Origin: Nibricoccus aquaticus
GTDB lineage: Bacteria; Verrucomicrobiota; Verrucomicrobiia; Opitutales; Opitutaceae
Assembly: GCF_002310495.1 (NCBI RefSeq)
Contig: NZ_CP023344.1
Span: 930,001 to 994,000 of the forward strand
DNA length: 64,000 nt
Direction: 5' to 3'
Each line of letters begins with the position of its first letter. Position 1 is the stretch's first letter. The position numbers were made by a program, and so were the translations under genes. Below the pieces are notes generated by a model, which was not told the DNA's origin, searched no databases, and saw nothing but the letters and a program-made list of their open reading frames with translations. This document shows positions 30,607-36,734 of the stretch, piece by piece.

Positions 30607-33279
30607 TCACCCCACATCATAATCCAGATACGGCCCGAGCCACTTCTCCGTCTCGGCCACGCTCTGCCCTTTGCGCTTCGCGTAGTCGTCGATCTGGTCC
30701 TTCGCGATTTTTCCGACACCGAAATACTTCGAGTCGGGATGATTGAAATACCAGCCGCTCACACTGCTCGCCGGGTACATCGCGCAGCTTTCCGTCAGCT
30801 TGATGCCCGTCGCCTTCTCGACGCCGAGCAGCTCAAACAAGATCGGCTTCTCCGTGTGATCCGGACACGCCGGATAACCCGGCGCCGGACGCACCCCGCG
30901 ATATTTTTCGCGGATGAGTTCCTCATAGCTGAGGTTCTCCGTCTTGCCAAAGCCGGTCGCTTCACGCGCCCGCTTGTGAAACATCTCCGCCATCGCTTCC
31001 GCGAGACGATCGCCGAGCGCCTGCGCCATGATCGCGTTGTAGTCGTCGTTCTTCGCTTTGAACTCCGCCGCGAAATCCTCGACGCCGTGCCCCGCCGTCA
31101 CCGCGAAGCCACCCATGTAGTCGATGCGCCCGCTTTCCTTCGGCGCGACATAGTCGGCGAGACAGTGGTTGAATTGATCCTCCGGCTTTTCGAGCTGCTG
31201 ACGCAGCTGGTGGAAACGCGTCAGCACCTTCCCCTGCTTCTCGTCCGAGTAGATCTCGATGTCGTCGCCCACCGAGTTGCACGGCCAGTAACCGATCACC
31301 GCTTTCGCCGTGAACCGTTTCTCTCGCACGATCTGCGCGAGCAGCTTCTGTCCATCGGCAAATAACTTCTTCGCCTCCGCGCCGACGACCTCATCCTCAA
31401 GGATCTGCGGATAACGCCCGTGCAATTCCCACGCGCTGAAGAACGGACCCCAGTCAATAAACGGCACGATGTCCTCCAGCGGCACCGGATCGTAGATCTT
31501 CGTACCCAGAAACTCCGGACGCGGAATATCCACCGTCGCCCAATCGAAGACCGGCTTCCGCGACCGCGCCGTCGCGAGCGACAACAACGGCTTCCTCGCT
31601 CGCCGCGCCGCGAACTCCTCGCGCTGCCGCGTCTGCTTCGCGACATTCTCCGCCATGAACGCCGGTTTCTGCTCGGGCGACAGCAACGCGCTCACCACAT
31701 TCACGACCCGGGACGCATCGAGCACGTGGACAACTCCGTGCGGATATTCCGGCGCCACCTTCACCGCCGAATGCGCCGGACTCGTCGTCGCACCACCGAT
31801 CAGCAGCGGCACCGTGAACCCTTCGCGTTTCATCTCCTTCGCGACATGCACCATCTCATCGAGCGACGGCGTGATCAGCCCCGAAAGTCCGATCACATCC
31901 GCGCCGATCTCCTTGGCCTTCGCCAGAATCTTGTCGCACGCCACCATCACGCCGAGATCCACGACCTCGTAATTGTTACACGCGAGCACCACGCCGACGA
32001 TGTTCTTGCCGATGTCGTGCACGTCGCCCTTCACCGTCGCGATGAGAAACTTCCCTTGGGCCCGCGTCGCCTCGCCCGCCGCCGCCGCGCGCTTCTTCTC
32101 CTCCTCCATGAATGGCGTCAGATAAGCCACCGCCTTCTTCATCACGCGCGCCGACTTCACGACCTGCGGGAGAAACATTTTTCCCGCGCCAAACAAATCA
32201 CCGACCACGCGCATCCCATCCATCAACGGCCCTTCGATGATATCGAGCGGCCGCGCATATTTCTTCCGACACTCCTCCGTGTCCTGATCCACAAACGCAT
32301 CGAGTCCTTTCACGAGCGCGTGCTTCATCCGCTCCTCGACCGACTGATTCCGCCACGCGAGATCTTCCTTCACCTCGGTCTTCGAAGCGCCGCCCTGCTG
32401 CGCCTTCAACTCGTCGGCAAATTTCACCAAGCGATCCGTCGCATCCGGCCGTCTGTTGAGAAGCACATCTTCAACATAGCCGAGCAACGTCGGCTCAATC
32501 TCATCGTAGTTCCCGAGCATGCCCGCGTTGACGATCCCCATGTCCATGCCTTCGCGGATCGCATGGTAGAGAAACGCCGTGTGAATCGCCTCGCGCACCG
32601 GATTATTGCCGCGAAACGAGAACGAAACATTCGACACGCCGCCCGACACCTTCGCATGCGGCAGCGTCTGCTTGATGATCCGCGTCGCCTCGAAGAAATC
32701 GACCGCGTAGTTGTTATGCTCCTCGATGCCCGTTGCGACCGTGAGGATGTTCGGATCGAAAATGATATCCTCCGGCGGAAACCCGATCTGCTCCGTGAGC
32801 AGCTTGTACGCGCGCGTGCAGATGCGGACCTTTTCATCGCGCGTCGCCGCCTGCCCTTGCTCGTCAAACGCCATCACGACCGCCGCAGCGCCATACCGCA
32901 TGATCAACTTAGCGCGCCGCAAAAACTCCGCCTCGCCATCCTTCAGCGAGATCGAGTTCACGATACCCTTGCCCTGCAGGCATTGCAGCCCCGCCTCGAG
33001 CACCGACCACTTCGACGAATCGATCATCACCGGCACCTTCGTGATGTCCGGCTCGGCCGCGATGAGGTTCAAAAACTTCACCATCGTCGGCTCCCCTTCG
33101 ATCAACGCCTCATCGACATTGATATCGATCACGTTCGCGCCGCTCTCCACCTGCTGACGCGCGATCTCCAGGCACGCCGCCCAGTCGCCCGCCTTGAGAG
33201 CCTTCGCAAATTTCGGCGAGCCGGTGATGTTGGTGCGCTCGCCAACGACGAGAAAGTTTGAGCCAGAGGTTTTGTTCAC
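30607..33279 (-). CDS. metH: Cobalamin-dependent methionine synthase, pterin/B12/activation part
   Basis: An 890-residue protein equal to residues about 350-1227 of a full MetH. The start [13 protein letters not shown] (9-21) opens the methyltetrahydrofolate-binding barrel. The cap and B12-binding Rossmann domain follow, with D419-x-H421-x-x-G in G-D-V-H-D-I-G-K-N, where the histidine ligates cobalt. The AdoMet-binding activation domain ends with [10 protein letters not shown] near 797-806. All functional residues I can check are intact. The homocysteine domain is a separate gene 2.4 kb upstream in the operon. The GTG start overlaps the cbiB stop by four bases. It must complex with the other part to make methionine. 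Confidence 0.93.
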
Positions 33280-34295
33280 AGTGAGAAAAATTCAGGATGC
33301 AGCATTCGCGAGACGCCCGCGCCCGCCGCAAACGTGACCAGCGTCGCCAGCACAACCAACACATAAGTGAGCCGCAGATCGCCCGCGTCCGCCCCCGCCG
33401 GATCGCCCGGATCGCCCAGCCACACATCCGCGACGAGCACGCCGTTCTTATAAATCGGCCCGATCAACCGCCGCTGAATCGCCCCCGCCGTCGCGGCCTC
33501 GGGCCAGCCGCTATTCGGCCCCGGCACCAGCGCATGCCCCGCAACCGCCGCTCGCCAAGCCTTGCGCGCCGAGCACCCCGGCACGACCGCACCGAGACCG
33601 CTGATCAACACCGCGCTCCAACGCGCCCAGAGAAAATTCGCCACATCATCCAGCCGCGCCCCGCACCACCCAAAGCGCAGATAACGCTCGGTCTTATAAC
33701 CCACCATGCTGTCCATCGTGCTCACGATTTTGAACACCACCGCTCCCAGCGGCCCAAACGCCACCGCATAAACCAGAGGCGACAACACGCCATCAACGAG
33801 GTTCTCGCTCAAGCTCTCCACCGCAGCGCGCCCACACGCCCGCGCATCCATCTTGTCCGTATCGCGCCCCACCAACATCGCAATCGCCGTCCGCGCACTC
33901 TCTGCATCGTCCCTCTTCACCGCCCGCGCAACGCGTTCACCGTGCGCGATCAAATCCCGCAGCGCAAAACACGCCCACAACACCACCCCCGCCACCACAT
34001 CCAGCACCCACGGATGCACCGCCGCAGCTCCCCCAAGTAACGCCACACACACCGGCACCACCATCGCGATCAGCAGCAAAAACAAGATCACTCCACCCGC
34101 ATACCCATTCGCACCCACGCGAAATAACACCCGCTCATACGCACTCAGCAAATTCCCGAGCAACCGTATCGGATGCCACCGAAACACCGGATCGCCAATC
34201 AACGCATCCAGCCCCAGCCCGATCGCTGCCCACAGCAAAAACCGCGGCTCAAAAAATCCAGTCACCGCATCAAGCGTCTGCAGCACCACGTTCAT
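33276..34295 (-). CDS. cbiB: Adenosylcobinamide-phosphate synthase
   Basis: A 339-residue integral membrane enzyme that joins aminopropanol phosphate (or aminopropanol) to adenosylcobyric acid. Family marks include G-D-P-x-x-x-x-H-P-I-R-L-L-G at about 34-47, [14 protein letters not shown] at about 165-178, an [10 protein letters not shown] loop near 198 and [10 protein letters not shown] near 258. About five hydrophobic helices are visible. It overlaps cbiZ upstream and metH downstream by four bases each, so the three are translationally coupled. Here it would rebuild cobinamide from the cobyric acid released by CbiZ. Confidence 0.93.
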
Positions 34296-35650: not shown

Positions 35651-35660
35651 ATCCGTGCGC

Positions 35661-36734
35661 TCAGCCCACCAGCAACGGCTCCAGTCCGCTCAGCCGCATC
35701 GCCACCGGGATCTCCGGCAGCTTTCGCGTCGGCAGCCCGCGCACCGCCTTCGCGATCGCGCCGATATGCGGCGGCGTCGATCCGCAGCACCCGCCGACCA
35801 TGTTGACCAGCCCGGCATCCGCGAACTCCCTCAACACCGCCGCCATGTCCGCCGGCGTCTCGTCATAGCCGCCAAACGCATTCGGCAGACCCGCGTTCGG
35901 ATAACACGTCACATAACAGTCCGCCACGCGCGCGAGTTCCTCGATGTATGGCCGCATCGCCCGCCCGCCGAGCGCGCAATTGATCCCCACCGAAAACGGC
36001 TTTGCATGACGGATCGAATTATAAAACGCCTCCGTCGTCTGCCCCGACAGCGTGCGCCCCGACGCATCCGTGATCGTTACGCTGATCATCACCGGCAGCC
36101 GCCGCCCGATCTCCTCAAAAACCCCTTCCGCCGCAAACAGCGCCGCCTTCGAATTCAGCGTATCGAAAATCGTCTCAATCAAGAGCGCGTCCACGCCGCC
36201 TTCGATCAACGCCCGGATCTGCTGCGTGTAAGCCTCTACGACCTGCTTCCAACTCACGGCCCGATAATCCGGCCGGTTCACATCGGGCGACATCGACAGC
36301 GTCCGGTTCAACGGCCCGATCGCTCCCGCCACGAAACACCGCCGACCCGGCGTCGCCGCCTCCGCCCGTTTCGCCGCCCGCTTCGCGCAAGCCACCGCCG
36401 CGAGATTCAGCTCCGTCACGATCTCTTCCAGATGATAATCCGCCTGCCCGATCGTCGTCGTGCTAAACGTATTCGTCTCCACCATGTCCGCGCCCGCCGC
36501 GAAGTAGTTGAAATGAATTTCTTCGATGATGTCCGGCCGCGTCAGACACAGCAGGTCGTTGTTGCCCTTCAGATCGTGCGGAAACGCCTTGAAGCGCTCC
36601 CCGCGAAAATCCCTCTCCTCCAATCCGTACGTCTGCACCATCGACCCCATCGCCCCGTCCAGCACCGCGATCCTGCTCTCAAAAAGCGCGCGCAACTCAG
36701 CAAAAGACGATGATTCTGGGAGTGTGTTAGCCAT
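35661..36734 (-). CDS. metH: Methionine synthase, homocysteine-binding part
   Basis: A 357-residue homocysteine S-methyltransferase domain. It has D-G-A-M-G-S at 26-31, E-T-N-T-F at 86-90 and the zinc-ligand cysteines C253 (G-I-N-C-A-L-G-G) and C316/C317 ([10 protein letters not shown]). The C terminus, M-R-L-S-G-L-E-P-L, is the linker that in intact MetH runs straight into the pterin domain, and here the protein ends three residues later. The pterin, B12 and activation domains are encoded separately at 30607-33279. ATG 36734 is preferred to the TTG at 36746. First gene of the operon. Confidence 0.92.

Follow-up and report, generated by a model that had tools for sequence, protein, structure and literature searches.

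Why should a gene pair for cutting and rebuilding corrinoids lie between the two halves of a methionine synthase? The question is raised by a 64,000-nucleotide stretch of the Nibricoccus aquaticus genome (Verrucomicrobiota; contig NZ_CP023344.1, forward-strand positions 930,001 to 994,000), hereafter the window, in which the B12-dependent methionine synthase MetH is encoded by two genes, metH-N and metH-C, and the genes cbiZ and cbiB stand between them. We propose, with a little short of even confidence and on the basis of gene content, that this is a MetH-linked module that would turn imported corrinoids into cobinamide-phosphate, which MetH may then use directly. The split itself is not new; what we describe is a conserved operon variant around a split enzyme already on record, in a pathway that unexpectedly has a gap, and it is the insert between the MetH halves, not the split, that is the unusual part.

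The split methionine synthase and its operon

Read on the minus strand, the gene order is metH-N, cbiZ, cbiB, metH-C. metH-N (35661..36734), which starts at an ATG at 36734 with an in-frame TTG at 36746, encodes the 357-residue homocysteine-binding subunit, carries the S-methyl_trans domain (PF02574, 312.9 bits) and aligns with positions 6-354 of the 1234 in the one-piece model NF007024. metH-C (30607..33279), which starts at a GTG and encodes 890 residues, holds the folate, cap, B12 and activation domains (Pterin_bind, B12-binding_2, B12-binding and Met_synt_B12; PF00809, PF02607, PF02310 and PF02965) and aligns with positions 355-1232. The two products abut at the linker of the one-piece model, with no gap at the cut, and all five MetH domains are present, in MetH order, across the two open reading frames (ORFs). 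The motifs of the zinc site ([17 protein letters not shown]) and DVHDIG line up with solved MetH; the zinc-site cysteines are presumably the zinc ligands. A DxHxxG motif is described for MetH (PMC10567725). The first-pass annotation, whose coordinates, strand and lengths for both metH parts proved right, had taken the two halves for a complete MetH that had become two subunits, and had named a full-length metH elsewhere in the genome as a case that would refute this. The host genome is a single contig of 4,730,447 bases, rated 100% complete, and profile searches of it with PF02574, PF02965 and PF02310 gave a single match each, all inside the operon, and no second, one-piece MetH. The completeness of the enzyme across its halves stands, and a two-subunit MetH, which the sequence and many relatives agree in predicting, is well supported.

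PF02574 was found in 51 genomes of a set of 57, the window's own included. The state of metH was read in 51 loci, in 45 of which both halves were visible, the contig or stretch holding one half in the other six. The gene is cut at the same place in 28 of these 45 loci and is in one piece in 17, in a sample that is non-random, as five of the 28 split loci, from the window and four other genomes, were included because they carry the insert. The recurrence of the same cut led us to reject a frameshift or an error of assembly as the source of the split. In 23 of the split loci the halves do not enclose cbiZ-cbiB; they are -4 to 205 nucleotides (nt) apart in 22 of these and 757 nt apart in G016, and the wider spread of the split than of the insert suggests that the split is the older of the two. 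The G016 gap holds an ORF for a 247-residue S-adenosylmethionine-dependent methyltransferase (L252:1588-2331, +), and the slot between the MetH halves is thus one that accepts other genes too.

Several further variations of the enzyme were seen in these loci. Five of them (L269, L272-L274 and L276, from G024, G001, G028, G029 and G036) encode MetH in one piece, with a C part that shares 66-74% identity with that of the window and falls inside the split clade, and an N part that is very divergent, at only 44-47% identity; it looks like a split MetH that was re-fused with a different homocysteine domain. In genus g10, metH-C is followed on its 3' side by extra pieces that correspond to the C-terminal end of the activation domain (L080:15433-15645 and 16206-16367; L085:2871-3068), and in the G009 draft (L088:2937-5716) metH-C occupies two overlapping frames, probably through a sequencing error or a recent frameshift.

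Between the halves in the window, cbiZ (34292..35611) encodes a 439-residue adenosylcobinamide/cobamide amidohydrolase (PF01955, 177.6 bits against a gathering cut-off of 27, covering 2-191 of the 191 profile positions), and cbiB (33276..34295) a 339-residue adenosylcobinamide-phosphate synthase (PF03186, 268.2 bits; TIGR00380, 204.5 bits, above the equivalog cut-off of 165.9). metH-N is separated from cbiZ by 49 nt, and the next two junctions are four-base overlaps, ATGA at cbiZ/cbiB and GTGA at cbiB/metH-C, which bears out the coupling that had been reported from the first pass. An organised operon rather than a frameshift, as had also been argued there, is supported by the recurrence of the gene order in other genera and of the cut among the loci read; a single transcript would presumably cover all four genes.

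MetH in separate proteins has been described before. Burkholderia phytofirmans has a split MetH, BPHYT_RS02305 and BPHYT_RS02310, identified with GapMind (PMC7311316), in which the cut is the same, with the homocysteine domain on one side and the pterin, B12 and activation domains on the other; the account of it in that source describes nothing between the halves, whereas here cbiZ and cbiB lie there. The metH of Sphingomonas koreensis is likewise described as "split into two parts" (PMC7857596). Phaeobacter inhibens, on the other hand, with a three-part MetH (PMC5764234) and a non-homologous reactivation system (PMC7311316), and Bacteroides thetaiotaomicron, with the reactivation domain split off (PMC7311316), are cut at other places. 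Among the matches listed in searches of the open-access literature there was no report of cbiZ or cbiB between metH halves.

Corrinoid genes and the finishing enzymes

In the known route, CbiZ and CbiB lead to cobyric acid and then to adenosylcobinamide-phosphate (AdoCbi-P) (PMC3541065), from which a finished cobamide requires CobU (or CobY), CobT and CobS. Profile searches of the complete host genome gave no match to CobU, CobS or CobT (CobY, CblS and CblT were not searched for), and the known route thus cannot restore the lower ligand. The same searches were positive in relatives and control genomes (CobS in 10 of 14, CobU in 6 of 14, CobT in 7 of 14), and all 22 CobU genomes among the 252 genomes of the family also have CobS, which indicates that the searches work. 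The first-pass annotation had seen here the rebuilding of scavenged corrinoids into the form that MetH accepts. CbiZ and CbiB are indeed present; the CobU/CobT/CobS set that belongs to CbiZ-dependent cobamide remodelling was not found, and this proposal is supported only by half.

The host genome also seems to be without a cobyric acid synthase-like gene (CobQ/CbiP): PF07685 (CbiA, CbiP) gave only two weak matches, of 26.6 bits (a 221-residue frame; 27 with neighbours, the cut-off being 27) and 20.7 bits, while the full-length proteins of relatives score 119-165 bits. CobQ/CbiP-like genes adjoin cbiZ-cbiB or the btu operon at L087:10152-11618 (-), L081:5713-7170 (+) and L078:15394-17301 (+), in three relatives that have no CobS match, G020, G204 and G183 (68% complete); NCBIfam was checked for L087 and L078.

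The corrinoid genes found in the genome, for import, adenosylation, CbiZ, CbiB and MetH, all lie within about 12 kb (CobY, CblS, CblT, CobD, NrdJ, QueG, MetE and MesD were not searched for). Divergent from metH-N, and downstream of a cobalamin riboswitch (36924..37160, +; RF00174, 35.5 bits against a gathering cut-off of 31.5), are five plus-strand genes: a btuB-like TonB-dependent receptor (37307..39193; PF00593/PF07715, with TonB-B12 as the top NCBIfam match at 231.5 bits, under its cut-off of 599.7), a btuF-like periplasmic binding protein (39350..40210; PF01497, 54.4 bits, named from fold family and position), a btuC-like permease (40351..41325; PF01032, with BtuC as the top NCBIfam match, under cut-off), a btuD-like ATP-binding cassette (ABC) ATPase (41322..42047; PF00005, named from position, the NCBIfam matches being a heme ABC ATPase first and a corrinoid ABC ATPase second, both under cut-off) and cobA/cobO, an ATP:corrinoid adenosyltransferase (42151..42762; PF02572; TIGR00708, 213.8 bits, above the cut-off of 167.75). 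The riboswitch stands 5' of this btuB operon and not of metH-N, immediately 5' of which none was found at gathering or at E values up to 1. Among nine further loci, a cobalamin riboswitch was found at gathering in three (L081, L083 and L171, of which L083 and L171 are one contig) and none in L078, L079, L080, L085, L087 and L089.

The separation of CbiZ from the finishing enzymes extends beyond this genome. CbiZ was found in 24 of the 252 family genomes, and occurs together with CobS in three of them, near the chance expectation (Fisher p 0.72); of the 20 CbiZ genomes of good quality (completeness 90% or above, contamination 5% or below), 18 are without CobS. CbiB, found in 12 genomes of the 57-genome set, occurs without CbiZ in five (G002, G005, G019, G033 and G034), all with CobS, and with CbiZ in seven, four of them without CobS (G000, G007, G018 and G020). 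CobT, searched for in 22 genomes, was found in four of the 15 CbiZ genomes there: G009, G184, G031 and G047, the last being from another family. These patterns indicate that several genera keep CbiZ with CbiB in the absence of nucleotide-loop assembly. Archaeal cobinamide salvage and the remodelling of R. sphaeroides use the same CbiZ and CbiB steps (PMC3541065, PMC7733943) but proceed to a complete cobamide, for which CobU, CobS and CobT were not found here. The CbiR locus of Akkermansia muciniphila likewise serves corrinoid hydrolysis for MetH-dependent growth in a bacterium without de novo cobamide synthesis; CbiR is, however, unrelated to CbiZ, and its locus includes cobT, cobS and cobU (PMC7733943).

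The cbiZ-cbiB insert and the CbiZ protein

The surroundings of cbiZ were read in 15 of the family's 24 CbiZ-positive genomes, that of the window and 14 others, and the insert is present in seven of these, from three genera (g1, g10 and g14), which answers the suggestion from the first pass that relatives be examined for the same split and insert. metH-N, cbiZ, cbiB and metH-C are whole on one contig in the window, G183, G184, G075 and G076, and are interrupted by contig ends in G009 and G013; six loci from a wider scan that show all or part of the arrangement are contigs of G075, G076, G184 (twice), G183 and G009, and add no further genomes. In the window the operon genes are spaced by 49, -4 and -4 nt, against 1-19 nt in genus g14 and 61-616 nt in genus g10, so that the four-base coupling is peculiar to the window among the insert loci. 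The divergent btuBFCD-cobA operon is also found in G183, and divergent btuBFCD in G184. Elsewhere cbiZ-cbiB adjoin btuBFCD-cobA genes (G020, G190 and G204) or cobA (G191); among the nine CbiZ genomes outside the neighbourhood set, G007 and G018 carry a one-piece metH.

The insert genomes form no one clade in trees, and a single origin of the insert was left unsupported. On a 34-row MetH tree from a quick search, the seven insert genomes require three changes, of which the starred branches force at least two, and the insert label is clustered, no shuffle out of 500 giving so few changes. In a tree of 14 CbiZ+CbiB rows with long outgroup branches, one clade of the six insert rows is rejected (p-AU 0.007), and 20% of bootstrap trees require no more than a single change among the rows that were grouped. 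These counts fit repeated insertion, loss or exchange alike.

Beyond the family, a scan of bacterial and archaeal genomes confirmed 288 relatives' loci, the best 80 of which were kept, many of them cut by contig ends. Within these 80, cbiB starts within 700 nt after cbiZ on the same strand in 73, and in three of the other seven there is no room for it; CobS and CobU occur inside the loci once (L177) and CobT never, a count that concerns the loci and not whole genomes. The phyla represented are Acidobacteriota (37), Latescibacterota (11), Gemmatimonadota (10), Verrucomicrobiota (9), Fibrobacterota (5), Tectimicrobiota (2) and three others with one locus each, three loci having no phylum. Prokaryotes with CbiB are described as mostly also having CbiZ or DUF71-B12 (PMC3541065). 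We do not claim a general link of cbiZ-cbiB to corrinoid methyltransferases, as MetH-like flanks were seen beyond the MetH insert loci only in L176 and L233 of the best 80; in L233 (8902-14289), an Acidobacteriaceae contig, cbiZ-cbiB lies between a homocysteine methyltransferase-like gene and genes for a PduO-type adenosyltransferase and a corrinoid protein.

CbiZ of the window is of a long form that is well conserved across the 15 sequences aligned (about 378-439 residues), with the CbiZ domain at residues 29-261 and a mostly helical domain at about 262-439, for which Pfam and NCBIfam gave chance-level matches only and no sequence family. The predicted structure has a mean predicted local distance difference test (pLDDT) score of 76.5 for the whole protein and 82.9 for the C-terminal domain alone. 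The N-terminal domain model resembles NylC/DmpA-type amidohydrolases (top Z 15.2 over 187 residues, root-mean-square deviation (rmsd) 3.0; Foldseek E 1.4e-6, with a template-modelling (TM) score of about 0.3), which are self-cleaving enzymes; in the domain modelled (34829-35527), a GTIN motif (residues 174-177) is shared without change by all 15 sequences. Fold matches of the C-terminal domain are weak: 1y9i (Z 7.6, 141 residues aligned, rmsd 4.2), 1rfz (7.3) and 1tlq (5.9), which we take to be one YutG/YpjQ-type family, are followed by the next match at 4.3, and Foldseek gives E 0.08. Together with the model NF038002 for CbiS, a bifunctional hydrolase/alpha-ribazole phosphatase, which scores 66.4 bits on this protein under a cut-off of 250, these weak matches hint at a CbiS-like two-domain enzyme. 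The CobZ phosphatase is PgpA/YutG-like, and a phosphatase role for the C-terminal domain would be a guess.

A possible base-free cofactor for methionine synthase

What, then, might the module do? Corrinoids would be imported through the btu genes and adenosylated by CobA; CbiZ would remove the linker together with the lower ligand, giving cobyric acid, and CbiB would re-add aminopropanol-phosphate, the linker that CobD normally provides, giving AdoCbi-P, both reactions being taken from what is known of the families. Because CobU, CobS and CobT are not found, the route would by known enzymes end there, at a corrinoid without a lower ligand. Another hydrolase, CbiR, has been described as turning cobamides into AdoCbi-P within E. 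coli cells that lack cobTSU and cobC (PMC7733943). MetH holds B12 base-off/His-on, with the base swung into a cleft of the domain and a histidine on the cobalt in its place (PMC10567725); a base-free corrinoid could thus be held by the same protein histidine, and MetH loaded in this way would make the lower ligand of the imported corrinoid irrelevant to the cell. The proposal as a whole builds on gene content and order, on the absence of matches and on recurrence in relatives. Its last step taken alone, the use of base-free corrinoid by MetH, is rather doubtful, and the boldest form, in which cobinamide-phosphate would be the final physiological cofactor of a base-off/His-on MetH and the cbiZ-cbiB pair would mark life on base-free corrinoid across phyla, is less probable still.

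Several observations weigh against a tail-less cofactor. The base tail normally fills the cleft, and metH-C has the same nucleotide-tail motifs ([21 protein letters not shown]) as the MetH of E. coli; nor does any column of the MetH-C alignment separate the seven insert-type MetH from the 19 split MetH of genomes without CbiZ. Adaptation of MetH to a tail-less cofactor was thus sought, and no sign of it was seen. Nor was cobinamide-phosphate reported as the working cofactor of MetH among the matches listed in open-access searches. Two of the insert genomes, G009 and G184, carry CobS, CobU and CobT, and three of the 25 CobS genomes of the family have no CobU match, the single-contig G125 among them, so CobU can be missed or replaced. 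Finally, methylmalonyl-CoA mutase, a further PF02310 enzyme, is present in four of the CbiZ genomes in which CobS gave no match (G018, G183, G076 and G075), and MetH is thus not the only B12 enzyme in these.

The full CobU/CobS/CobT sets in those two insert genomes, and the G125 case, in which not every step need be recognised, would equally suit the view of the first-pass annotation, classical remodelling, in which CbiZ and CbiB make AdoCbi-P and unrecognised enzymes in place of CobU, CobT and CobS attach the base that MetH prefers. CbiZ-dependent remodelling is, moreover, described as established in other organisms (PMC7733943). Replacements for all three enzymes would, however, be needed in a complete genome, and CbiZ tracks neither CobS nor CobU across the 252 genomes, so that we regard this explanation as unlikely. 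It also counts against it that we know of no replacement for CobS.

The unchanged tail pocket of MetH would be expected if the enzyme used intact imported cobalamin, CbiZ cutting only those cobamides that MetH cannot use and CbiB turning the product into charged AdoCbi-P as a store or as waste. The CbiZ of R. sphaeroides is described as cutting pseudocobalamin and not cobalamin, and E. coli making wild-type CbiR as holding intracellular corrinoid 4-fold above most other samples (PMC7733943), both of which fit such selective clearing and trapping. Clearing by itself, on the other hand, could do without cbiB, which nevertheless follows cbiZ in 73 of the best 80 of 288 loci, and we consider this possibility no more probable than classical remodelling. 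It could also be that CobU, CobS and CobT were lost recently, the full set still being present in the relatives G009, G184 and G031, and that cbiZ-cbiB were left by chance in a convenient operon slot, one that in G016 took up the methyltransferase ORF. Such a relic appears very improbable, as CbiZ occurs without CobS in 21 of the 24 CbiZ genomes of the family, including 18 of the 20 of good quality, and as the window carries intact copies of both genes and the 15 aligned CbiZ sequences are well conserved.

Work on B12-type cofactors usually assumes that the working form is a complete cobamide, lower ligand included. In the locus described here, a conserved cutting and rebuilding pair is kept in a genome in which the finishing enzymes CobU, CobS and CobT were not found, and it lies within the operon for the one enzyme of that genome in which a B12-binding domain was found. 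The split MetH provides natural separate subunits for studying how the domains of MetH exchange, and the operon makes the use of base-free corrinoid by a base-off/His-on enzyme in nature directly testable. If cobinamide-phosphate does serve MetH in this way, the classing of genomes as cobamide users or salvagers would change.

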